This document shows positions 21,957-59,696 of a stretch of DNA of 64,000 nucleotides, one piece after another; within the stretch, counting starts at the first letter, position 1; every line of letters begins with the position of its first letter. A program made the position numbers and the translations under genes. Under the pieces are notes generated by a model, which did not search any database, was not told the DNA's origin, and saw nothing but the letters and a program-made list of their open reading frames with translations. This stretch comes from Candidatus Saccharimonadota bacterium (GTDB lineage Bacteria > Patescibacteriota > Saccharimonadia > Saccharimonadales > Saccharimonadaceae), in the NCBI GenBank assembly GCA_027492255.1, contig JAPUFB010000004.1:62001-126000 (forward strand), written 5' to 3'.

Positions 21957-22469
21957 TTATTTCTTACGATGCGCTATTTTTCGTTTTACATCTTTATCGT
22001 CTAGATAGGCAAAGTAGGGTGCGCCTATTTGCTTGTAGAGCGATGATCGAAATTTCTTGTTAGGAAAGAGGATTTTTTCTAGTTTAGACTCTTCAATAAG
22101 GTAGTCAATGAGCATCTTATAATCCCCATCGCCCGAAACAAGTAGTATCTTATCGAAATCTGAATCTTTTTGTAGACGTTTCATTACTGAAAATATAATA
22201 TCCGAATCAACGTTACCTTTTTTGTTTCCGATCATTGCAGAATTATGTTGTCTAAATACGAGAATAAAGCCTGCATTCTGGATATTCTCATAGAGTTGTT
22301 CGATCTTTAGACCTTCTTGAACGTATCCAAGATAGTAAAATGCTTTTTCTACGTTATATTTCTCTCGAAGATAAATTCTAAACTTATATAGATCAATATT
22401 CCACGGAGGTTCAGCGCTAGCCGTACCAAGGTGTAGGTTCTGACCATCAATATAGCAATAGTTCTTCAT
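21957..22469 (-). CDS. NYN-domain (PIN-like) RNase, DUF88 family
   Basis: 170 residues. Acidic active-site motifs of NYN domains: YCYIDGQNLH (first Asp and GQN), GNVDSDIIFSVMKRL (second acidic pair), and KILLVSGDGDYKMLIDYLIEE (SGDGDY). Basic C-terminus (KDVKRKIAHRKK). Metal-dependent RNA cleavage is known for the family. TATAAT lies 10 nt before ATG 22469. It is flanked by two copies of the tRNA-Gln 3' end, so it may sit in a small inserted segment. Confidence 0.85.
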   Translation of the reverse strand: MKNYCYIDGQNLHLGTASAEPPWNIDLYKFRIYLREKYNVEKAFYYLGYVQEGLKIEQLYENIQNAGFILVFRQHNSAMIGNKKGNVDSDIIFSVMKRLQKDSDFDKILLVSGDGDYKMLIDYLIEESKLEKILFPNKKFRSSLYKQIGAPYFAYLDDKDVKRKIAHRKK

Positions 22470-22520
22470 ACCTGCACTAATTATACCACCGGGGGCGGTG
22501 TTATTTTACCTAGCTTACTG

Positions 22521-22540
22521 GGCTGGGGAGGAGGGATTTG
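22521..22540 (-). repeat. Copy B of tRNA-Gln 3' end
   Basis: A second perfect 20-nt copy of the tRNA-Gln 3' terminus (GGCTGGGGAGGAGGGATTTG), 741 nt from copy A and 139 nt from the functional gene. No T-stem partner follows, so it is a fragment. Confidence 0.8.
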
Positions 22541-22621
22541 CTTTCGTCGCTCAAGCTCCGAAAGTGCCGGGGAGCAAAGACTTTTGCTCCCGTTCAAATC
22601 TCGCTCACTCACAACTATAGA

Positions 22622-22653
22622 AAATATCTCAGACCACAAGGACCTGAGATATT
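22622..22653. terminator. Inverted repeat next to tRNA-Gln
   Basis: AAATATCTCAG / CTGAGATATTT, 11 perfect pairs, directly downstream of the minus-strand tRNA; it can end transcription in either direction. Confidence 0.6.
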
Positions 22654-22658
22654 TACTA

Positions 22659-22733
22659 TGGCTGGGGAGGAGGGATTTGAACCCCCGAATGCATGGACCA
22701 AAACCATGTGCCTTACCACTTGGCGACTCCCCA
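22659..22733 (-). tRNA. tRNA-Gln (anticodon TTG)
   Basis: On the minus strand: acceptor TGGGGAG / CTCCCCA, D-arm GCCAAGTGGTAAGGC, anticodon stem CATGG/CCATG with loop TTTTGGT (anticodon TTG), variable CATTC, T-arm GGGGG TTCAAAT CCCTC, discriminator G and an encoded CCA. Complete cloverleaf. Confidence 0.93.
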
Positions 22734-22826
22734 ATATATATGAACCGAGACTTTCAGAAGCCTCCAGCTAGTAAGGTTTTGGTCCAGGACTGTTTTATAT
22801 TTACTCGCGCTTTGCGCTCGAACAGC

Positions 22827-22860
22827 CATGCACCTTACCACTTGGCGACTCCCCAATATA
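22827..22860 (-). pseudogene. Partial tRNA-Gln copy (5' half)
   Basis: Near-identical (two differences) to the 5' acceptor strand plus D-arm of the tRNA-Gln gene, including the AT-rich flank, but with no anticodon arm, T-arm or 3' half following. An inverted piece of the anticodon arm (GGTTTTGGTCCA) lies at about 22776-22787. Confidence 0.65.
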
Positions 22861-27827: not shown

Positions 27828-29201
27828 ATGTACTATGTATCTTCAGTTCTTACTGCTCCTCTAGATTTTTTTGCCCGTAGTGGTGGAGGTGGCTCAAGTA
27901 GTAGCGGTGGCGGTGATATGGCTATCGGAGTGGCTATTGGCTACGGTATTGGCTATGCGATCGCCTGGGTTCTAAAGAAGATAGTGGGACGCGACACGGC
28001 TATGATTCCATCTATTATCTTGTGCGTACTGTTGTCGATTGCACTCGGAATCGCACCGATGTTCAGCGATAGCGGATTATTGATCGTACTCGGTATAGAA
28101 GCAGCTGTAGGTATTTGGATTGGATGGAGCGCAGTTATGTTTAGTCTTTTTGAAAAAATGAAGAAAAGCTTTAAAAAAGCTGACACAGATATTGCTCTTG
28201 CCGCACAGACGGATCCAGCCTGGGATGAAACAATCTTTAAACAACGCGCGACAGACGTATTTATGCGGTATCAACAAGACTGGTCAAATCGAGACAGTAG
28301 TCATTTTGCAGAATATATGACACCATATTATGCCCAGCATGCCACTCTTATGTTGCGTGCACTTACGGAGCTAAAGCGTTTCGACCGTATGACAAATGTT
28401 GTCATTAAAAGTATGGAGGTCAGCTCTATCCATGACGACACCGATATGACTCTCGATACATTCACAATGTTCATTGTTGCTTCAAGCCAAGACCAACTCA
28501 TCGATGAAGTGACAAATTCTGTCGTGTTTACAGATGCCAGCGACTTCATGGAAGAATGGACATTCCAGCGAACAGATACCTCATGGCAGTTAGCGCACAT
28601 CGATCAAGTCACGGCCAATAAGCTCTCAGAGAAAACCACCCTTAAGGACTTTGCTAAAGCCAATAGTATGTTCTATAGCCTCGACTATGGATGGTTATTA
28701 ATCCCTCGATCTGGTGAACTTGTGAAAGATGGCGGCTTCGGAAAAAGTGATATAAATAACCATGTCATCGGTACCTACCACAGTATTCTTGCTCAGATGT
28801 ACACCTACAGTAACAATAAGGATATCCAAAACAATAAGCCGCCTTATCTTGTTGGGCAAATCAATCTCCCAAAGAGTTATGGCGGTATCTTAATTCGCAG
28901 CAAAAAAGGTCTACTAACCTCACTGTTTATCAATTGTCCAAGAGGATATCAAAAGTACGAATTTGAATGGCCTGACTTTAATAAACGCTATCATGTGTGT
29001 GCCACTGATGCCGATAGGCTTGCCGCATTCGAGCTGCTAAACCCAGGCTATATGGCCTTTTTGTACGATAATTTCGAAGCACTCAACATCGAAGTAATCG
29101 ACAATATCGTGTATTTCTATACACAGATGAATACATCTATAACTGAATATGAAAAACTTTTAGGCGTACTAACCCGGGCTTTCAAGGAATTACAGCTATA
29201 A
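27828..29201 (+). CDS. Membrane protein with Tim44-like soluble domain
   Basis: 457 residues. Gly/Ser stretch (SGGGGSSSSGGG, about 18-29), two to three hydrophobic segments to about residue 108, then a soluble domain containing ETIFKQRATDVFMRYQQDWSNRDSSHFAEYMTP and the EEWTFQRTDTSWQLAHID core seen in Tim44-like domains. The remainder (about 270-457) is a separate mixed domain. Exact role unknown; the layout suggests an inner-membrane scaffold. TATACT is near 27812. Confidence 0.65.
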   Translation: MYYVSSVLTAPLDFFARSGGGGSSSSGGGDMAIGVAIGYGIGYAIAWVLKKIVGRDTAMIPSIILCVLLSIALGIAPMFSDSGLLIVLGIEAAVGIWIGWSAVMFSLFEKMKKSFKKADTDIALAAQTDPAWDETIFKQRATDVFMRYQQDWSNRDSSHFAEYMTPYYAQHATLMLRALTELKRFDRMTNVVIKSMEVSSIHDDTDMTLDTFTMFIVASSQDQLIDEVTNSVVFTDASDFMEEWTFQRTDTSWQLAHIDQVTANKLSEKTTLKDFAKANSMFYSLDYGWLLIPRSGELVKDGGFGKSDINNHVIGTYHSILAQMYTYSNNKDIQNNKPPYLVGQINLPKSYGGILIRSKKGLLTSLFINCPRGYQKYEFEWPDFNKRYHVCATDADRLAAFELLNPGYMAFLYDNFEALNIEVIDNIVYFYTQMNTSITEYEKLLGVLTRAFKELQL

Positions 29202-29248
29202 TTTACCTCTGTTAATACAATAATTGTATGGAATATGTGAAAAAAGTA

Positions 29249-29277
29249 TTGACATAATATAGTTTATGGTATATAAT
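29249..29277 (+). promoter_or_regulatory. Consensus promoter for noncoding RNA 1
   Basis: TTGACA (29249-29254), 17-nt spacer, TATAAT (29272-29277): a perfect consensus. Transcription should begin near 29284. Confidence 0.85.
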
Positions 29278-29283
29278 GTTTTC

Positions 29284-29915
29284 CATCGTCACTGTTGTAC
29301 TCCACCGAGAGTAGGCGAATAGCCTCGACCGTGACGACTGGTAATGGTTGGTGGCATTAGCGGTCAGCGGTTTTTTGCCGCACAGGACCCAGGGCAACGA
29401 GTCGCCCGTGTCACCGTTCGCAAGGGTATCAGATTCCCCAGGGAAGAACGGTACTCCCGCGCTGAGATGCGCGGTGGCCCACCCGGGCCTCTAGTGAAAA
29501 CCCCAGTGGGGTATGCGTGTCTGCCACGACAAGGATAGTGACAGCAATCGCTGGATCGACCAGCAACGCACTTCCTCAGTTACCACCTGGCGAAAGAGAG
29601 ATGACGACAATGGTGGGTCGTCGTTGCGGGGTCATCCCAATCTCTCAAGTAGGATGCGTGTACTAATCAAGCGCATTTTGGCCCCTTTCTTGGAGTCAAC
29701 TCTGATCGATGCTGATAACATCTGGACCCCTGAAGACGTGCTTGTATGCCTTAAATGCGTACAACCTACGACATTCGAAAGGGACCGCCCTACTAAGAGA
29801 CTTGGCCCGATTAACTTCGGACATCCAGGATCTGGTGAGGGCAAACCCCGGCAAGGGCTGGTGCGTGCAGCAATGCACAATCCAGCCCCCCGGGGTATTT
29901 CTTATGCTAAAAAAT
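29284..29915 (+). ncRNA. Candidate large structured noncoding RNA 1
   Basis: About 630 nt with no credible gene; open frames here overlap on both strands and show no protein-like pattern. It starts at a perfect promoter and is full of local pairings: CGTCAC/GTGACG (29287-29336), GCGG/CCGC, ACCGTTC/GAACGGT, CCGCGC/GCGCGG, GGCCC/GGGCC, ACCCC/GGGGT, GAGAGAT/ATCTCTC, and a final long stem CCCCGG..GGGCTGG / CCAGCCC..CCGGGG (about 29845-29895). GC is higher than in neighbours. I looked for RNase P, tmRNA, SRP and group I/II signatures and found none. The end point is an estimate. Confidence 0.65.
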
Positions 29916-29918
29916 CTA

Positions 29919-29946
29919 TTGACAACACTTCCCGAGAACTTATACT
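29919..29946 (+). promoter_or_regulatory. Promoter for noncoding RNA 2
   Basis: TTGACA (29919-29924), 16-nt spacer, TATACT (29941-29946), in the short gap between the two RNA candidates. Start expected near 29953. Confidence 0.7.
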
Positions 29947-29952
29947 TGGTAG

Positions 29953-30331
29953 TACCTGAACGCCACGAGCGTTCGGGCACCGCAGCCGGCAAGAAGCAGT
30001 GCCGGCCAAATCGGTCCTCGCACACAACTGAGGACCGCATGTCCCACCTGCAACAACCTGATAGCAACCAAGCACCCGGCGCAGTCTGCGCATATCAGGA
30101 ATCTGGCTCTTGTTCCGAAGTCATCAGCGTGAGAAGCAGAGGATCGAAGGTAAAACGATCTATGAACGGTAGATATCTCCCCAGGGTGATATCACAACGT
30201 CTCTATACACTCTGAGCTCAACGTTCAATCGGAACTCCGTCCCCGCACCCTCAAGTCCTACACGGACACTCTACGGAGTTATAAATTGGGGCTGCGGGGG
30301 CGACCAACCCCTGATTTTCGGGGGTTTTCCT
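29953..30331 (+). ncRNA. Candidate structured noncoding RNA 2
   Basis: About 380 nt from its own promoter to a T-rich terminator. Perfect hairpins in order: GAACGC/GCGTTC, GCCGGC/GCCGGC, CGGTCCTC/GAGGACCG, CCTGAT..GCGCAG/CTGCGC..ATCAGG, GATCG/CGATC, GATATC/GATATC, AACTCCGT/ACGGAGTT with inner GTCC/GGAC. CCCCGCA (about 30241-30247) can also pair with TGCGGGG (30293-30299), a possible pseudoknot. Size and density resemble catalytic or tmRNA-class RNAs, but I found none of their signatures. It may also be read through from RNA 1. Confidence 0.65.
30306..30331 (+). terminator. Terminator of noncoding RNA 2
   Basis: AACCCC / GGGGGTT with an 8-nt loop, followed by TTTTCC. Confidence 0.7.
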
Positions 30332-30368
30332 TTATCCCGCTTTCTTAGTTATTGCTATACTAGTAGTA

Positions 30369-33300
30369 ATGGAGTTTCAAAAAAGGTACAAGGCGCTCAA
30401 CGAAGCGCAAAAGTTGGCTGTCGATACACTCGACGGGCCAGTGATGATTGTGGCCGGTCCAGGAACTGGTAAGACTGAATTATTGAGCGTACGCGTCGCC
30501 AATATCTTACAAAAAACCGATGCGCTGCCAGGAAACATCTTGTGTCTCACATTTACTGAAAGTGGTGCAACTGCCATGCGCGAACGTCTTATTGGCCTTA
30601 TAGGCCCCGAAGCCCACAAAGTCGCCATTCATACTTTCCATAGTTTCGGCAGCGACATCATCAACCAAAACGGCGAATATTTCTATAACGGTGCACATTT
30701 CCGTCCGGCTGACGAGCTCAGTTCATATGAGATTTTAAGCAGTATCATGGAACGCCTGCCGCACAGCAGTCCACTGGCCAGTACAATGAACGGACAATTC
30801 ACCTATCTGCGGGATATTCAAACGAGTATTTCAGAACTTAAAAAAAGCGGCCTCACGCCAGATGAACTAGTAAAAATTCTTGATCACAATGACGCATTTA
30901 TCAGCTGGTCACAGTCATTGTTCGCTAATGTATTCGCTGAAAAATTAAGTAAAAAAATACTTCCCCGAATAGCGAAACTGAGCGATGATCTAAAGATGTA
31001 TTCTGAACCACCCCTAGAGTTAATAGGGTATCTTCCATTATCGGAGCTAGTAATCGGAAGTCTCGAAGATGCAGTAAATGAAGCAGTGATGGAGGATTCA
31101 ACAAAACCAATTACTGCGTGGAAGAAAGAGTACCTCGAGAAAGATGGGGAGGGCACGCAAGTATTAAAAGATGCGAAACGCAGTGTGAAACTCAGAGCAC
31201 TCAGTGGAGTCTACTACGACTATCTTATCGCTATGCAAGAACATGAGCTGTATGATTACGATGACATGATTCTCCGTGTCGTCCATGCGATGGAAGTCTT
31301 CAATGATCTGCGCCTTAATCTACAGGAGACGTATCACTATATCCTCGTTGATGAGTTTCAGGATACGAACGATGCGCAAATGCGCCTTGTTTGGAATCTC
31401 ACGAATAATCCAGTAAGCGAGGGTCGACCAAATCTTATGGTAGTCGGCGATGACGATCAAGCGATTTACCGTTTTCAAGGCGCGCTCCTTAGTAATATTA
31501 TTGATTTCACGAAGCGGTACCAGGATGTCAAAGTTATTACACTCACGGATAATTATCGTTCGGCACCAGACGTGCTAAAGCTGGCGCGCGACGTCATCGT
31601 ACAGGGTACTGAACGGCTCGAAAATATGCTTGAAACCGTTAATAAGACCCTGACACCGCATCATATGCCGGCTTCCTCTGAGTTAGCTGCCCACCGGTAT
31701 GAAACAACTCGTGAAGCGTATTATTCACTGGCGGCATTAATCGAAAAAAATCACCGTGAAAATTCAAAATTTTCACGAGCCGTCATCGCACGCAATCACC
31801 GCCAACTTGTAGGATTTTTACCATATCTTCAGCATACCGGACTACCGATGCGCTATGAACGCCAGGAGGATATGCTCGAAAGCGAGCCCATTCGCCAACT
31901 TGAGCTGGTTGTACGAGTTGTTCATGCAATTGCGACTCAACAATTCGATGAAGCGAACGAAGCGCTCAGCGAACTTCTTGCGCATCAAGCGTGGAATATC
32001 CCGCCCACTGAATTATGGCAATTAAGTTTAAGAGCTTGGCGTGATAAGAAATTCTGGCTAGAGTCAATGCTTGATAGTAATGAAGATCTTAAAAATATCG
32101 CCGAGTGGTTGATCGTCGCAAGCAATCTTAGTAAAACCGAACCACTCGAATACATGCTCGACCATCTATTTGGCGTTGTTGATAATCAAGCGAGCGAAAC
32201 AAGCAGTGATGAATCCAAGCCTTTTGGAAGTTCGATGAAAAACAGCTTTTCGTCACCACTCCGACAGTATTTTTTCAATGAGCAAAAACGAGCTATTCAA
32301 CCCGCAGTGTACCTTGAGCATCTTGCTGCATTACAGAAAATACGCTCAGCGCTACGCGAATACCGTCCTCAGAAAACCCTACACCTAGAAGATTTTGTCG
32401 AATTTATTAACCTGCACCACGAGCTCGATCTACCAGTGCAGGGAAGTGGTGAGATTGATACCGGCGAACAGGCTGTGCAATTACTTACTGCACATAAAGC
32501 CAAGGGGCTTGAATTTGATGAGGTATACATAATCGACGCTGAAGAAAATATCTGGGGTCATGGTGCACGCACAAAAAGCCGCATAATCAAATTTTCGAGC
32601 AATTTACCCCTGTCACCCTCGGGAGATAGTGACGATGAAAGACTGCGCTTATTGTACGTCGCACTTACGCGAGCTAAGAGTCGTCTTATACTTGTCGGTG
32701 CTCGATCGAGCGATAACGGAAAAGAGATGTTGCCGGTCGGAGCCATCGGTGAACAAATGCTTTCATGGCTTCACCATGAGCCGCTCGATATACACGAGCT
32801 TACACAATCACTTCGCATCGACTGGCGGGCTCCGTTGTTTACAGTCACCTCAACTGATCAAAAACGACTTCTAATGCCACGACTCGAGCACTATAAATTA
32901 AGTGCGACGCATCTCAATAATTTTCTTGATATAAGCAGGGGTGGGCCAACTCTTTTCCTTCTTCACAATCTCCTTCGTTTCCCGCAGGCAATATCGCCAC
33001 ACGCGGCCTATGGCTCAGCAATTCATGCCGCTCTCCAGCACGCCCATCAGCATTTCGCCGCGCACAAAAAGAAGCGTCCAGTTGAAGATATCCTGCACGA
33101 CTTTGAGAAAAATCTGCACGAGCATCAATTATCAGAACTTGACTATGTAAAATTCTTAGAGCAGGGGACCGAAGTACTTACGCATTACCTCGCTGAGCGT
33201 TACGATACCTTTACGCTATCGCAAAATGTCGAGCATAATTTTGGAAGTGAACACGTAGTGCTTAATGGTGCAGTAATTACTGGTGCTATCGATCTAATGG

Positions 33301-33692
33301 AGATTGATAAAAAAGCAAAAACGATTGTCGTAACTGACTACAAAACTGGTTCACCGGTAGGAAATTGGAAAGGCACAACCGACTATGAAAAAATTAAACT
33401 GCATCATTATCGCCAACAATTGTTATTCTATAAACTTCTGATCGAACATTCTCGCAGTTTTGCAGGCTACACGGTAACAAAAGGTATTCTGCAGTTCGTT
33501 GAGCCTGACAAATCAGGACATATTATTTCGCTGGAGCTGGAATATGACCAGTCAGAACTTGATGAATTCACTCATCTTATCGGTGCAGTATGGAAACGAA
33601 TTGTTGATCTCGACTTTTCAGTCGCAGACGACTACGAATTAAATCTCAAAGGCATCCACTCTTTCGAACAGTTTTTACTTAATCACTCTTGA
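30369..33692 (+). CDS. UvrD/RecB-type helicase with C-terminal PD-(D/E)XK nuclease
   Basis: 1107 residues. SF1 helicase motifs: LNEAQKLAVDTLDGPVMIVAGPGTGKTE (Q motif and Walker A), CLTFTESGATAMRER, ILVDEFQDTNDAQ (motif II), GDDDQAIYRFQGA, TDNYRSAP, LTAHKAKGLEFDEVYI, YVALTRAKSRLI (motif VI). The C-terminal 250 residues hold a RecB-like nuclease: YGSAIHAALQHAH, ITGAIDLMEID, IVVTDYKTGS. Likely processes DNA ends for recombination in place of RecBCD/AddAB. TATACT ends 7 nt before the ATG. No Fe-S cysteines near the nuclease. Confidence 0.93.
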   Translation: MEFQKRYKALNEAQKLAVDTLDGPVMIVAGPGTGKTELLSVRVANILQKTDALPGNILCLTFTESGATAMRERLIGLIGPEAHKVAIHTFHSFGSDIINQNGEYFYNGAHFRPADELSSYEILSSIMERLPHSSPLASTMNGQFTYLRDIQTSISELKKSGLTPDELVKILDHNDAFISWSQSLFANVFAEKLSKKILPRIAKLSDDLKMYSEPPLELIGYLPLSELVIGSLEDAVNEAVMEDSTKPITAWKKEYLEKDGEGTQVLKDAKRSVKLRALSGVYYDYLIAMQEHELYDYDDMILRVVHAMEVFNDLRLNLQETYHYILVDEFQDTNDAQMRLVWNLTNNPVSEGRPNLMVVGDDDQAIYRFQGALLSNIIDFTKRYQDVKVITLTDNYRSAPDVLKLARDVIVQGTERLENMLETVNKTLTPHHMPASSELAAHRYETTREAYYSLAALIEKNHRENSKFSRAVIARNHRQLVGFLPYLQHTGLPMRYERQEDMLESEPIRQLELVVRVVHAIATQQFDEANEALSELLAHQAWNIPPTELWQLSLRAWRDKKFWLESMLDSNEDLKNIAEWLIVASNLSKTEPLEYMLDHLFGVVDNQASETSSDESKPFGSSMKNSFSSPLRQYFFNEQKRAIQPAVYLEHLAALQKIRSALREYRPQKTLHLEDFVEFINLHHELDLPVQGSGEIDTGEQAVQLLTAHKAKGLEFDEVYIIDAEENIWGHGARTKSRIIKFSSNLPLSPSGDSDDERLRLLYVALTRAKSRLILVGARSSDNGKEMLPVGAIGEQMLSWLHHEPLDIHELTQSLRIDWRAPLFTVTSTDQKRLLMPRLEHYKLSATHLNNFLDISRGGPTLFLLHNLLRFPQAISPHAAYGSAIHAALQHAHQHFAAHKKKRPVEDILHDFEKNLHEHQLSELDYVKFLEQGTEVLTHYLAERYDTFTLSQNVEHNFGSEHVVLNGAVITGAIDLMEIDKKAKTIVVTDYKTGSPVGNWKGTTDYEKIKLHHYRQQLLFYKLLIEHSRSFAGYTVTKGILQFVEPDKSGHIISLELEYDQSELDEFTHLIGAVWKRIVDLDFSVADDYELNLKGIHSFEQFLLNHS

Positions 33693-33717
33693 TAGCCGTT
33701 GTATATCGTGCTATTAT
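33689..33717 (+). promoter_or_regulatory. Promoter of Cys-rich peptide and structured region
   Basis: TTGATA (33689-33694, overlapping the helicase stop codon), 17-nt spacer, TATTAT (33712-33717). The leader carries GGGATG/CATCCC (33730-33746). Confidence 0.6.
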
Positions 33718-33768
33718 ACTCGTCACGCAGGGATGATCAGCATCCCTAGAACCCAAGATAGGTGAGTC

Positions 33769-33891
33769 ATGGCTAACGATAAGGCCTGTACTGCTTGCAA
33801 TGGCAAGGGTGGCTTCGGCATCGGTGGCTGTGGCGCCATCACACACTCGTGCTGCGCCAACTGTGCGTGCACAGGACGCGTCAAGGCATAG
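33769..33891 (+). CDS. 40-residue Cys-rich (DnaJ-type zinc finger-like) peptide
   Basis: MANDKACTACNGKGGFGIGG, then CGAITHSCCANCACTGRVKA. CTACNGKG and CANCACTGR resemble the CxxCxGxG repeats of the DnaJ zinc-binding domain, so it probably binds one zinc. AGGTGAG upstream. Below the size of most gene callers. It sits on the same transcript as the structured region that follows. Confidence 0.65.
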   Translation: MANDKACTACNGKGGFGIGGCGAITHSCCANCACTGRVKA

Positions 33892-33892
33892 C

Positions 33893-34365
33893 ACTCCATC
33901 CCGCGTATGCGTGGACTCTGCTTCTTCTCCGCAGAGTTCGCCACCCACGTGTTTGTAGCGCGACCGCTGACACGATCATGTCGATGGCTATTTTAACAAA
34001 CACGTGCAAGGGGGCGGTCGAGAGGTGAATTCCGTTAGGGTCATACCCTGACTTTTCGCCACAACCTCTCGACCGCCCCACCCCCCCCAGAACGTCTCGA
34101 CCAGAGTGCAGAGCACTGTGATGTCTAGGGGTGAGACATCTAGTCTACCTCTGGGCGAGGCGCGAGCGGTGGTGTCCACCGGACATGTGAACCCGTTACC
34201 CCAAGAACGAGGCAGTAACGCGGTGGACACCACCTAAAGCTTCGATGATAATCCATATCGTCACAGCAGCTCAACGATGAGCGTGCTCCGAAACTGGATT
34301 CAGTCCCTGGTACTGTGAGCATCTGCTCTCATCATTCCGCCGTCTCCTCGTGAGACGGCGTTTAA
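33893..34365 (+). ncRNA. Structured region downstream of the Cys-rich peptide (candidate RNA 3)
   Basis: No convincing gene in 590 nt up to dus. Long perfect pairings: ACTCTGC/GCAGAGT (about 33912-33936), CACGTGTTTGT (33946-33956) / ACAAACACGTG (33996-34006), GGGGCGGTCGAGAGGT / ACCTCTCGACCGCCCC (about 34012-34079), GATGTCT/AGACATC, GGTGGTGTCCACC / GGTGGACACCACC (about 34170-34234) enclosing CGTTAC/GTAACG, then a terminator at 34338. It could be the 3' part of the peptide's mRNA or an independent RNA. Confidence 0.5.
34338..34365 (+). terminator. Terminator of structured region
   Basis: CGCCGTCTC / GAGACGGCG, 9 pairs, 5-nt loop, then TTTAAAT. Confidence 0.8.
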
Positions 34366-34479
34366 ATTGGCTATATTTTCTATTCCATTCGGCATACGTT
34401 AAAAAGACGTAGGAGAAGTCGATTCTCTAAAAGATGCCATTATAAAAATGTTCGATCCTGTGACATAATTGTATCTGTT

Positions 34480-35427
34480 ATGAAATCATTTTGGGATACG
34501 CTTGAGAAACCTTTTTTTATCTTGGCACCGATGGAAGCTGTAACGGACGTTGTTTTTCGCCATGTTATTAAAAAGGCTGGTTCACCAGATGTTTTTTTCA
34601 CGGAATTCGCCAATGCGACAGGCTGGGTTCACGCGGGTGAACGCGCTATTGCTGGACGCTTAGTCAAAACAGATGATGAATACCCGATTGTCGCTCAAAT
34701 CTGGGGCGGAGAACCTGGTGATATGGCTGCATTTGCGCAGTACTGTGCTGCACAAAAATTCGATGGTATCGACATCAATATGGGATGCCCGGCAAAAAGC
34801 GCCATAAAAAGTGGTGGATCCGCGTTAATACTAAAGCCCGAAGTGGCAATTGCCTCGATCGCAGCCGCCAAAACCGCCGGGCTACCCGTCAGCGTGAAGA
34901 CGCGCCTCGGTTATTCAACGACAGAGGAGTGGCGCTCATGGCTCACGACACTGCTTGAACAAAATATCGCTGCACTCACTATTCACCTCCGGACAAAGAA
35001 GGAGATGAGTAAAGTTCCAGCTCACCATGAACTTATAGACGATATTAAGCAACTACGCGATGACATTGCGCCACATACCCTCCTTATCATAAACGGCGAC
35101 GTACGTGACCGTGCACATGGTCTGGAACTCGCAGAACGCTCTGGTGTCGATGGGGTTATGATCGGCCGTGGAGTATTTGCGAACCCATTTGCTTTTTCCC
35201 AACTTCCAGACGAACATACTAAAGAATCGCTAATCGAGCTCTTACGTTATCATCTCGATATGTATGACTTATATAGCGATGATACGTCACGACCATACGA
35301 TACTCTCAAGCGTTTTTTCAAAATCTACATCCGTGATTTTGATGGTGCGAGCGAGTTGAGGGATATGTTCATGCATACCAAATCAACCACAGAAGCCCGT
35401 TTACTACTCAAAAACTCAAAACTATAG
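34480..35427 (+). CDS. tRNA-dihydrouridine synthase (Dus family)
   Basis: 315 residues. FILAPMEAVTDVVFRHV (FMN-binding start), IDINMGCPAKSAIKSGGSALI with the catalytic Cys, VSVKTRLGY, ALTIHLRTKKEMSKVPA, LLIINGDVRDRAHGLEL and GVDGVMIGRGVFANPFAF. It reduces uridine to dihydrouridine in the tRNA D-loop using FMN/NADPH. Length and motifs are normal. CATAAT lies 10 nt before the ATG. Confidence 0.93.
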   Translation: MKSFWDTLEKPFFILAPMEAVTDVVFRHVIKKAGSPDVFFTEFANATGWVHAGERAIAGRLVKTDDEYPIVAQIWGGEPGDMAAFAQYCAAQKFDGIDINMGCPAKSAIKSGGSALILKPEVAIASIAAAKTAGLPVSVKTRLGYSTTEEWRSWLTTLLEQNIAALTIHLRTKKEMSKVPAHHELIDDIKQLRDDIAPHTLLIINGDVRDRAHGLELAERSGVDGVMIGRGVFANPFAFSQLPDEHTKESLIELLRYHLDMYDLYSDDTSRPYDTLKRFFKIYIRDFDGASELRDMFMHTKSTTEARLLLKNSKL

Positions 35428-56165: not shown

Positions 56166-56633
56166 ATGGCAACAGGAAAATCGGGGAAGAACATTCCTCC
56201 GATGCTCGTTGCAGCTGCGGCACTCGCATTCGGCGCAACCCTCTCGGGCTGCTCGACTGAACCCGAGGACGACCGTGTTGCGTACTGCGTCGATGAGAAC
56301 GACAAGATCATTGACGAGAAGTACTGCGACGCAGACGGCGAAGATCACAGGACGTACGTCGGCGGTGGACACTCCGTGTTCATCTGGTACGGTAACTACC
56401 CCGCGGGACTGCCCATGGGCACTAACGTGACGACCTACAACAACACCACCGTCAACGGCGGCACCGTGAGTGGAACGCGCGTCAGCGCATCCGACCCGGT
56501 GGCTCGCGCCAATGCCGGGCTTCCCTCGAACGGCAAGGTTGCCACCGGTAAGACCGGCGGCATCGGAACCGGCAAGGGAGCAGGCGGCAAGGCTGGCGGC
56601 GGTACAGGCGGAAAGGGCGGAGGCGCAAGCTGA
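56166..56633 (+). CDS. Lipoprotein (DUF1190/YjfM-like)
   Basis: 155 residues. Signal with lipobox LSGC (about residues 26-29): the protein should be lipid-anchored outside. YCVDENDKIIDEKYCDADGEDHRTY with two cysteines, then a Gly/Lys-rich low-complexity tail (about 125-155). The YjfM resemblance rests on gene order rather than a domain match. AAGGAG 8 nt before the ATG. Its TGA overlaps the next ATG (TGATG). Confidence 0.7.
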   Translation: MATGKSGKNIPPMLVAAAALAFGATLSGCSTEPEDDRVAYCVDENDKIIDEKYCDADGEDHRTYVGGGHSVFIWYGNYPAGLPMGTNVTTYNNTTVNGGTVSGTRVSASDPVARANAGLPSNGKVATGKTGGIGTGKGAGGKAGGGTGGKGGGAS

Positions 56634-58171
56634 TGAGGAGAAACTCGAATGTTCCCATCCGTGATGGATGGGAAGAGAAGATCAAACTTCAAGGACTTGT
56701 TTACTCGCCCACCATGCTTCCGAACGGTACTGTTATGCAGTACTGGAAGGAAGGTGCTGTCTACGACATCACCATGGCGGACGTCGAAGCGATGGAAGAG
56801 GCGGCCAAGGCCGTCTTTGCTATGCTCGACTTCGCCGGTGAATGGATCCTTGACAACCCTCGTTACATGTACAAGATGGGCATACCCAAATTTGCCCAGG
56901 CCATGGTGGCCAAGTCTTGGCGAGACCAGATCGATGGTCAGGAGTTTGGAAGCGTCTACGGACGATTCGATTTCCGCTTCGGTGGAGTCAATCATCCTGA
57001 CGAATCCATGCGGACTCCCAAGTTGTACGAATACAACGCCGACACGCCTACGTGCCTCGTTGAGTCGGCTTGGGTACAGTGGCAATGGCTGCAGGATACC
57101 GCTCACGGCCCCGATCAGTGGAACCTCATGCAGGAACTGCTGATTGAGGCGTGGAAACGTAACCTCGGCCTCATCGAGCAGCGGCTCGGCCACAAGCCTG
57201 TCATTTACTTTAGCTACACAGAGGATGAGTACTCCGGCGAAGACGCAATGAACACGTACTACATCCAGGACTGCTGTGCGCAAGCTGGATACGATACGAG
57301 AAACCTCTACGTCGAGGAGATCATGCTTGGGGATGACGGGTTGTTCTACACCGGTGACGGCAAGGAACATATCGAAGTCATCTTCAAACTGTATCCCTGG
57401 GAATTCATGATGGAACAGCGTTTCGCTAAGGCCATCGTGAAGGATCAGCTGCGCGAAGAGCCGGTCACAACCGTCCAGGGAAACCAGACGCTGGGTACTA
57501 TCTGGATCGAGCCCCCTTACAAGATGCTGTGGAGCAATAAGGGGATTCTTCCGATCCTGTGGGACCTGTTCGGCAACAAGAAGTCCAAGCACTACGATGC
57601 TGAGAAGGCGAAATACCTCCTCCCGACATGGTTTGCGGGAGAAGAGCCCAAGGGCCTCAAGACATACGTCAAGAAGCCCTTACTCGGTCGTGAAGGTGCC
57701 TGCGTCAAGATCGTCAAGGACGGAGAAGTTCTCGAGGAGTATGCCGGTAATTACGGAAAGGAAGGCTACGTCGTTCAGGCGTTTGCCCCACTTCCTGCGT
57801 TCTCGACTGATGACTCGGATCAGCCTGTTCACCCGGTGATGGGAGTCTGGATGATTGATGGCGAGCCCGCTGGGCTTGCTATCCGTGAAGCAACAACGCT
57901 AGTGACGGACAACGTCTCCAGCTTCGTTCCTCATTGCATCATTGACTCGCCATATCGGAAGGTGCCTCTCGAGCCGACGTTCGGCAACGACGACACCTTT
58001 GATACGTACCGTGAGGTACCTCCTGTCGAAGCACCCCAACCGGCTCCGCCGACTTTTGCGTCATACCTCTCTGCTCGAGAAGGAGCGCAGATTCGGGCAG
58101 CCGCGTCTGCAGAATTCACGATCCAGTACAGCCAACCGCCCAAGCCCACCACACCTCCCACGAAGGAGTAG
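56633..58171 (+). CDS. Glutathionylspermidine synthase-like ATP-grasp ligase (YjfC-like)
   Basis: 512 residues. GspS C-terminal-domain hallmarks: LYEYNADTPTCLVESAWVQWQW, IYFSYTEDEYSGEDAMNTYYIQDC, FKLYPWEFMM, IEPPYKMLWSNKGILPILWDLF, VKKPLLGREGACVKIV and VMGVWMIDGEPAGLAIREATTLVTDN. By family it joins an amine such as a polyamine to a carboxyl group using ATP; the amidase domain of E. coli Gss is absent. A Pro-rich tail of about 50 residues follows. Translationally coupled to the lipoprotein; 9 nt before the DUF350 gene. Confidence 0.9.
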   Translation: MRRNSNVPIRDGWEEKIKLQGLVYSPTMLPNGTVMQYWKEGAVYDITMADVEAMEEAAKAVFAMLDFAGEWILDNPRYMYKMGIPKFAQAMVAKSWRDQIDGQEFGSVYGRFDFRFGGVNHPDESMRTPKLYEYNADTPTCLVESAWVQWQWLQDTAHGPDQWNLMQELLIEAWKRNLGLIEQRLGHKPVIYFSYTEDEYSGEDAMNTYYIQDCCAQAGYDTRNLYVEEIMLGDDGLFYTGDGKEHIEVIFKLYPWEFMMEQRFAKAIVKDQLREEPVTTVQGNQTLGTIWIEPPYKMLWSNKGILPILWDLFGNKKSKHYDAEKAKYLLPTWFAGEEPKGLKTYVKKPLLGREGACVKIVKDGEVLEEYAGNYGKEGYVVQAFAPLPAFSTDDSDQPVHPVMGVWMIDGEPAGLAIREATTLVTDNVSSFVPHCIIDSPYRKVPLEPTFGNDDTFDTYREVPPVEAPQPAPPTFASYLSAREGAQIRAAASAEFTIQYSQPPKPTTPPTKE

Positions 58172-58180
58172 GAACACACG

Positions 58181-59044
58181 ATGATCAAGAACTACGCAAT
58201 GGGTCTGCCCGACACGATGCTTGCACTCGCGTGCATGATCGCGTTCGCGATCGGCTTCTGGCTCCTCATCAATCGGCTCACGCCGTTCGATGACGGGGCC
58301 GAGTACCGAGACAAGAACAACTCAGCCTACGCGCTTCGGCGCGGCGGCATCCTCGTCGGCCAGGCCATCGCCATGAGCAGTGCGATCTCGATCTACGGAG
58401 CGAACCAGACGGCTGCCAACTTCGGTTGGTTCCTGCTGGCACTCGCGTGGATCTGTGTGGCGCTCATGGTGTCGATGTTCGCCGTGGACAAGCTCGTGCT
58501 CGTCCGGGTCGACAACCTGAAGCTGCTTCGTGAGGGGAATCTCGCGGTCGGCTTCACCGAAGCCGGTGCCTACATCGGCATCGGCATGATCCTCGGCAGC
58601 TCGCTGATCGGGAGTGGGCACTCGATGCTCACCACCATGGCAAGCGCCGTGGTGTTCTTCCTCCTCGGTCTACTGCTCATCTGCGCGGCGTTCTGGCTCC
58701 TCGAGCTGGCGACGCCGTACAGGCTGCACGACTGGCTCGTGGCTGGGAAGACGACGGCAGGGATCGAGACCGGCCTCGCGCTGGTGGCGATCTCCTACGC
58801 GGCCTCGCCGTCCGTTGCGGGCGACGTCGTCAGCTGGGGGGCTAGTCTGTCAGGCTTCGGCCTGACAGCACTGGTGTCTGTTGTCCTGTTGATCGGATCC
58901 TGGCTGCTCGTCGAGCGCTTCGGACCCGGCCACGGGGCCCAGCAGACCCATGAGCAGGACAATGTGGCGATGTCGGTCGCGCGAAGCGCCTTCATCGTCA
59001 TGCTCAGCATCGCCGTCAACGCGGCGATCGTGAACGTGCTGTAA
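58181..59044 (+). CDS. DUF350 membrane protein (YjfL-like)
   Basis: 287 residues and about 8 hydrophobic segments in two repeats, each opening with a similar pattern (TMLALACMIAFAIGFWLLINRLTPFDDGAEY; then AFWLLELATPYRLHDWLVAGKT). DUF350 proteins lie next to GspS-like ATP-grasp genes in many bacteria, as in E. coli yjfL-yjfM-yjfC. Function not established. Very GC-rich compared with the rest of the window. A large hairpin terminator follows. Confidence 0.85.
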   Translation: MIKNYAMGLPDTMLALACMIAFAIGFWLLINRLTPFDDGAEYRDKNNSAYALRRGGILVGQAIAMSSAISIYGANQTAANFGWFLLALAWICVALMVSMFAVDKLVLVRVDNLKLLREGNLAVGFTEAGAYIGIGMILGSSLIGSGHSMLTTMASAVVFFLLGLLLICAAFWLLELATPYRLHDWLVAGKTTAGIETGLALVAISYAASPSVAGDVVSWGASLSGFGLTALVSVVLLIGSWLLVERFGPGHGAQQTHEQDNVAMSVARSAFIVMLSIAVNAAIVNVL

Positions 59045-59049
59045 CACTC

Positions 59050-59096
59050 GCCCCAGGGCTCGGCCTGCAGTTTACTGCAGCGCTGAGCCCTGGGGC
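59050..59096 (+). terminator. Terminator of lipoprotein/ATP-grasp/DUF350 operon
   Basis: GCCCCAGGGCTC (59050-59061) pairs with GAGCCCTGGGGC (59085-59096), with an inner CTGCAG/CTGCAG stem. Confidence 0.8.
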
Positions 59097-59185
59097 ACGC
59101 ACCTTTGGAGTATTCCTTCAAAGGTGTAATAAATGCTTCCATAGATGCGTATCTATGCTGATGAGCTGAAAACAGCGAAAAGCAA

Positions 59186-59215
59186 TTGACTAAACTTGAT
59201 ATTTGGTGTTATAAT
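59186..59215 (+). promoter_or_regulatory. Promoter of K+ channel gene
   Basis: TTGACT (59186-59191), 18-nt spacer, TATAAT (59210-59215). Confidence 0.75.
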
Positions 59216-59252
59216 ATATCTCAACTTTGGCCCAACGACTATGGAGGGATTC

Positions 59253-59696
59253 ATGAGGCGAAGTATTCGAGTTGCTCGGCGTATTCTCAATAAGGCACGC
59301 TGGGTGTTCGGGGTGATTGTTGCGTGGTTCATCCTGGCTGCTACTGCCTTTTCCGTCCTAGAGGGGAAATCCTTCGGCGACAGTGCATGGTGGGTAGTAG
59401 TCACAGGATTTACCATCGGCTACGGTGATCTCTTCCCTGTTACAGCAGGGGGCAGGTTCATCGCCGGAACATTCATGATTTTCTCATTCCTGTTGCTTGC
59501 AATCGCGAGTGGCCACATCACCGTTGCCATCCTCGAAGACAAGAACATCTTCTCCCACGAAGAGCAGGAAAGGAACGAGGCGGCCATGCTTGCGATCTGC
59601 AAGAAGCTCGACATCGTTCCTATCGAGTTCAATGAACTACCCCCCACATCATGGTGGGAACAGAAGACGGGGTTCGATGAGCACGGCGAGGAATAA
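59253..59696 (+). CDS. Two-helix potassium channel
   Basis: 147 residues from ATG 59253 after GGAGGG; ATG 59241 is a possible alternative. TM1 (about 12-32), pore helix and filter WWVVVTGFTIGYGDLFPVT (TIGYGD is the K+ filter), TM2 FIAGTFMIFSFLLLAIASGHI, and a charged cytoplasmic tail of about 50 residues with no RCK domain. It follows the ATP-grasp/DUF350 operon and has its own promoter and terminator. Likely a tetrameric K+ channel. Confidence 0.88.
   Translation: MRRSIRVARRILNKARWVFGVIVAWFILAATAFSVLEGKSFGDSAWWVVVTGFTIGYGDLFPVTAGGRFIAGTFMIFSFLLLAIASGHITVAILEDKNIFSHEEQERNEAAMLAICKKLDIVPIEFNELPPTSWWEQKTGFDEHGEE

Follow-up and report, generated by a model that had tools for sequence, protein, structure and literature searches.

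Location and transcription signals of the uvrD-upstream interval

The window, i.e., the whole stretch of 64 kb that was analysed, comprises positions 62001-126000 of contig C4 of G000, a genome assembly of 854,584 bases of which the relatives are Saccharibacteria. It contains an interval of 1167 nt between open reading frames (29202-30368), delimited by the stop of the preceding ORF at 29201 and the start of a uvrD-like ORF at 30369. On basis of its sequence signals, this interval probably accommodates two RNAs in tandem, designated RNA1 and RNA2, and the following features were assigned to it and to the adjoining gene:

29249-29277, + strand: promoter of RNA1, TTGACA-17-TATAAT, 12/12 consensus bases (promoter scan, shuffles)
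29284-29908, + strand: RNA1, candidate structured non-coding RNA (no Rfam, no Pfam, folding z -4.2; ends inferred)
29284-29711, + strand: multi-branched domain of RNA1 with a predicted, interrupted closing stem of 26 bp (helix mean P 0.73-0.98; equalled by 19/150 shuffles)
29650-29680, + strand: 10-bp hairpin of RNA1, also drawable in the unit of congener G002 (L007 1110-1141; one pair changed on both sides, marginal alignment)
29845-29896, + strand: strong 3' hairpin of RNA1 followed by TATTTCTT, putative end (P 0.98-1.0; not in the terminator scan)
29919-29946, + strand: promoter of RNA2, TTGACA-16-TATACT (promoter scan)
29953-30330, + strand: RNA2, second candidate structured RNA (folding z -5.6; 9-bp 5' hairpin at 29955-29977)
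30306-30326, + strand: terminator-like hairpin of RNA2 (terminator scan)
30369-33692, + strand: UvrD-like helicase with a C-terminal PD-(D/E)XK nuclease domain, a conserved neighbour (ORF list, Pfam)

The RNA1 promoter, reported as exact in the preliminary description, is the sole 12/12 match within the window, and matches with at most one mismatch are overrepresented (3 observed versus 0.50 expected, with none of 100 shuffles reaching 3). The hairpin at 29845-29896 lies just 5' of the second promoter and is a plausible terminator, giving RNA1 a length of approximately 625 nt, in agreement with the earlier estimate of about 630 nt; since the automatic terminator scan omitted this hairpin, the 3' end is counted as inferred. 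The second promoter, together with the terminator-like hairpin which precedes the uvrD-like start codon by 42 nt, points to RNA2 as a tandem transcript, and the extents of both RNAs were derived from the sequence by combining the stable hairpin with the second promoter.

The approximately 625 nt that follow the RNA1 promoter are devoid of a recognisable ORF. Four of the longest frames gave no Pfam match at E 0.01, no Shine-Dalgarno sequence was seen by eye before the start codons of the RNA1 frames, and a codon model trained on the G000 genome left 29202-30368 non-coding, which is consistent with the initial view that no credible ORF is present. Among the listed non-coding gaps in the 224 kb sampled this is the third largest, and one of the two larger gaps is clipped by the sample edge and appears partly coding. 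No Rfam family matched RNA1 at the gathering threshold, and cmscan with an E limit of 5, run against 4227 Rfam models, returned only two chance-level small RNAs, with OLE, ROOL, and GOLLD absent from the matches. By these models RNA1 is therefore not RNase P, tmRNA, SRP RNA, an intron, rRNA, OLE, ROOL, or GOLLD, which extends the earlier failure to match it to most of these classes; the Infernal run against all Rfam models that had been suggested as a check thus placed RNA1 in no family. Neither a full-length Rfam match nor a conserved ORF together with an absence of covarying pairs, the two outcomes named beforehand as speaking against a structured RNA, was encountered. RNA1 contains no tRNA, the nearest being located at 22659-22733. 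An origin of RNA1 as an rRNA-derived mosaic was considered and rejected, as 13-mers shared with the 16S and 23S of three relatives were not in excess.

Folding and predicted structure

The folding stability of RNA1 exceeds that of dinucleotide-shuffled sequences, with a z of -3.7 over 632 nt and -4.2 over 625 nt, while RNA2 reached -5.6 (20 shuffles each for the values of -4.2 and -5.6); such shuffles control composition, albeit not every bias. In 160-nt windows the mean z was -2.0 in the gap versus -0.4 in 271 windows elsewhere (p 0.0005, which is optimistic because overlapping windows are not independent). These data sustain the earlier impression of dense local stems.

The closing long stem proposed in the preliminary description was recovered as a prediction. 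Long-range helices totalling 26 bp connect 29284-29316 with 29681-29711, and they enclose approximately 430 nt instead of the entire unit; a predicted local 5' hairpin at 29286-29337 is the alternative to this stem. Moreover, long-range pairing from the 5' end was as high in 19 of 150 dinucleotide shuffles, placing the closing stem within chance, and for that reason it is not evidence by itself; in the same test applied to the unit of congener G002, 17 of 150 shuffles performed as well.

Units in related genomes and elsewhere in the same genome

Searches with blastn in 101 genomes and in 394 genomes of the family yielded promoter matches or chance-level similarities only and no convincing homologue of RNA1; eleven weak matches in the 394 genomes were near the expected level and were mostly located within long open frames. 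No match was found among phage records or plasmids. One viral contig matched exactly over 18 nt, which was dismissed as being at about chance level and without similarity beyond it, and UvrD peptide patterns gave no match in genome contigs.

The sole candidate homologue occupies the same slot in congener G002, where a unit of 627 nt has both a terminator hairpin and a TTGACA/TATAAT promoter of its own, and folds at z -3.4. Local alignment with RNA1 gave p values of 0.03-0.07 in three scoring schemes and 0.30 in a fourth, which have to be discounted because several schemes and comparisons were tried; end-to-end alignment revealed no similarity. One aligned block corresponds to the same hairpin in both units, in which both partners of one base pair differ. 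Orthology of the two units is plausible from their position, with weak support from their sequences. A covariance model built from these two sequences was searched over 297 genomes and found no convincing homologue: it recovered its own two sequences, one G002 match inside xseA (gene assigned by eye), and eight further matches at E 0.02-0.06. Congener G001 has no unit upstream of uvrD, and across approximately 55 relatives uvrD is preceded either by an empty interval or by differing ORFs. In L073 and L012 this interval holds GC-rich units without evident gene, as judged by eye, with z values of -11.3 and -4.8.

Inspection of gaps, which is not a blind test, revealed further GC-rich, strongly folding, and apparently non-coding units in the G000 genome, including two in tandem at L003 (C3 84675-86377) and one each at C4 155560-156075 and C3 119640-119890, with z values of -10.5, -7.6, -11.9, and -5.0. 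The L003 units resemble RNA1 in promoter type, 5' hairpin, high folding stability, and the tandem arrangement of two RNAs. They differ from RNA1 in that their closing stems exceed those of shuffles, whereas that of RNA1 does not, and similarity is confined to the promoter; none of the units at L003, C4, and C3 shares sequence similarity with RNA1. Their layout and folding nevertheless suggest that these units and RNA1 may form one class. A 20-nt motif common to one of the L003 units (L003a) and L013 was discarded, since in 101 genomes it occurred only in those two and in one coding match. Beside the L003 units, a small, GC-rich, signal-peptide-like ORF was observed.

Many members of the family carry a unit on the other side of uvrD, i.e., downstream of the gene and on its strand, with variable contents and a promoter close to the stop of uvrD (L009, L010, L011, L013, L079, L085, L087, L090, L093, L097, and others; the units of L008, L010-L013, L015, L019, L020, L023, and L024 likewise lie downstream of uvrD). 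In about half of the genera that have such a unit, it is closed by a 13-bp stem (GACAGGAATAGTG/CACTATTCCTGTC or variants thereof), the arms of which are approximately 260-660 nt apart. Arms were found by a search requiring at least 11/13 pairs and at least 8/13 consensus letters, after which clear cases were kept by hand. In an alignment of nine distinct arm pairs, 95.7% of cells were paired, and 6 stem pairs were changed on both sides across genera versus 1.9 in shuffles (0/500 reaching 6), although the search criteria and the hand selection favour such two-sided changes. The same pattern would be expected of a terminal inverted repeat at the DNA level; the constant strand, the promoter before the stem, and the terminator after it are the reasons for reading it as RNA. 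Eleven of these loci gave no match in Rfam. Exact matches to the 3' end of the unit occurred in five records, all from Saccharibacteria or Saccharimonadia, and none was found in viral contigs.

The window itself contains such a unit at 33693-34479, with a promoter, a Cys-rich ORF of 40 aa (33769-33891), and a highly structured tail with a z of about -5 in 160-nt windows, and without the 13-bp closing stem. Like RNA1 with its putative end, uvrD-downstream units combine a strong promoter, a 5' hairpin, a structured and variable interior, and a terminator, and adjoin uvrD on the same strand. Unlike RNA1, many contain the covarying stem and often small ORFs or tRNA-like parts, all of which RNA1 lacks, and they reside on the opposite side of the gene; no inverted repeat of the GACAGGAATAGTG type or a variant was found in the RNA1/RNA2 stretch (29240-30360).

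Several additional properties of the uvrD-downstream units were observed. Elements resembling tRNAs occur in L074, L079, L020, L024, L015, L082, and L093, several of which have abnormal anticodon loops according to ARAGORN, and large D-arm insertions were seen by eye in L074 and L024. The next gene in several genomes encodes a dus-like tRNA dihydrouridine synthase (34480-35427 in the window). Enzymes of this type modify D arms, and a connection between the dus-like gene and the tRNA-like elements with D-arm insertions is a matter of speculation. Small proteins of two kinds are encoded, one of approximately 50 aa with a QSVKN-like motif and one Cys-rich of 40-70 aa (L008, L020, L023, L079; L010, L011, L073, L074, L077, L081, L083), and three of these that were compared with NCBIfam gave no match.

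Interpretation of RNA1

The exact promoter, the excess folding, the absence of Pfam and Rfam matches, the same-slot unit in G002, and the unrelated but similar units elsewhere in the genome support RNA1 as an RNA, and it is likely that RNA1 is a real structured transcript, whatever its role. Counting against a functional RNA are the closing stem that lies within chance, the lack of a unit in G001, and the fact that GC-rich DNA folds well regardless; for a functional RNA that acts in trans the chances are considered even. The earlier designation as a large structured non-coding RNA is thus retained in the sense of a large, probably structured, and apparently non-coding unit outside the Rfam families, and as a functional RNA it is a candidate.

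In the proposed mechanism, RNA1 would be transcribed from its strong promoter as a folded non-coding RNA, in tandem with RNA2, within the interval of varying content that separates uvrD from a small, conserved gene, and the hairpins near both of its ends would slow its decay. It may act in trans, as an RNA or as an RNA-protein scaffold or sponge, rather than via regulation of uvrD, a proposal whose sole ground is that no sign of a leader function was seen, and it would be one of a group of fast-evolving RNAs specific to the lineage.

The main competing explanation is that the gap represents GC-rich DNA without function or of foreign origin, left over from an acquisition or from a decayed gene in an insertion-prone slot; it would fold well, and any transcription of it would be noise. 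The contents of the slot differ between genera or are absent, RNA1 is without homologue in 394 family genomes, and the GC content of the gap is 0.52 versus 0.47 for coding DNA. Against this, two promoters, the first of them perfect, and a terminator frame the stretch, its folding exceeds that of composition-matched shuffles, and neither a gene trace in Pfam nor a match in phages or plasmids was detected, so that an insert of this kind is regarded as unlikely while still deserving serious weight. A role of RNA1 and RNA2 as cis-acting leader or attenuator of uvrD would agree with their position directly upstream of the gene on the same strand, which is also found in G002. Such a role is improbable in view of the terminators and the lack of conservation: RNA2 has its terminator 42 nt before uvrD, RNA1 has its own putative end, a second promoter lies in between, and uvrD orthologues in most relatives, including G001, are without such a unit.

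RNA1 could also be an mRNA that encodes at least one small protein and has a structured untranslated portion, resembling the uvrD-downstream units in this respect, and other units at uvrD indeed encode proteins of 40-60 aa. Little probability is assigned to this explanation, as no RNA1 frame matches a family, no ATG with a Shine-Dalgarno sequence was seen, and the start codons at 29604 and 29709 are located in or beside predicted stems. Finally, RNA1 being a far-diverged member of a known family such as OLE, ROOL, GOLLD, or similar is very improbable, as it is favoured by the size range and the multi-branched predicted fold only, and the Rfam comparison at E 5 speaks against it.

OLE, ROOL, and GOLLD are large structured bacterial RNAs with poorly understood functions, and ROOL and GOLLD are described as residing in phage and prophage genomes, frequently close to tRNA islands (PMC12286853). 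RNA1 shares with these RNAs a length of over approximately 600 nt, a bacterial origin, and an elaborate predicted fold, and is an unassigned candidate for this kind of RNA. The likeness noted earlier holds for the size range, and no defining feature of these RNAs was recognised in RNA1. The known RNAs constitute families supported by covariation, and their Rfam models fail to match RNA1. With regard to the phage or prophage and tRNA-island context of ROOL and GOLLD, RNA1 adjoins uvrD, contains no tRNA, and matches no phage record. Homo-oligomeric complexes are a further property of OLE, ROOL, and GOLLD.

A broader and tentative proposal, possible though rather doubtful, is that Saccharibacteria possess large structured RNAs specific to their lineage, hypervariable and driven by strong promoters, with several unrelated ones per genome. 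All would be built alike, from a consensus promoter, a 5' hairpin, in many cases a closing stem, and a terminator, while their interiors would be replaced almost entirely from one species to the next. RNA1 and RNA2 would be two members, and the uvrD-downstream units, with their tRNA-like parts and microproteins, would be a branch with a conserved closing stem. A literature search, covering mostly open-access journal papers, retrieved no recognisable paper on structured RNAs of Saccharibacteria. If RNA1 and its like are expressed, these small genomes devote space and strong promoters to large RNAs that change faster than their proteins, an expenditure that needs a reason, such as phage or host conflict. 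In the uvrD-downstream units, with their covarying stem, this question can be tested directly.

Several observations concern other parts of the window and the genome. In the G000 assembly, with a stated completeness of 99.45, no 16S or 23S rRNA genes were found when looked for. An L10 leader (RF00557) precedes rplJ at 2334-2458, barely exceeding the gathering score. At approximately 22450-22860, the tRNA-Gln gene (22659-22733) has incomplete copies of its own end on either side, e.g., ACTTGGCGACTCCCCAATATA again near 22850 (by eye), which could be an integration scar. A GC-rich cluster at 56166-59696 (up to 0.66 versus about 0.46) encodes glutathionylspermidine-synthase-like and DUF350 proteins and looks acquired.
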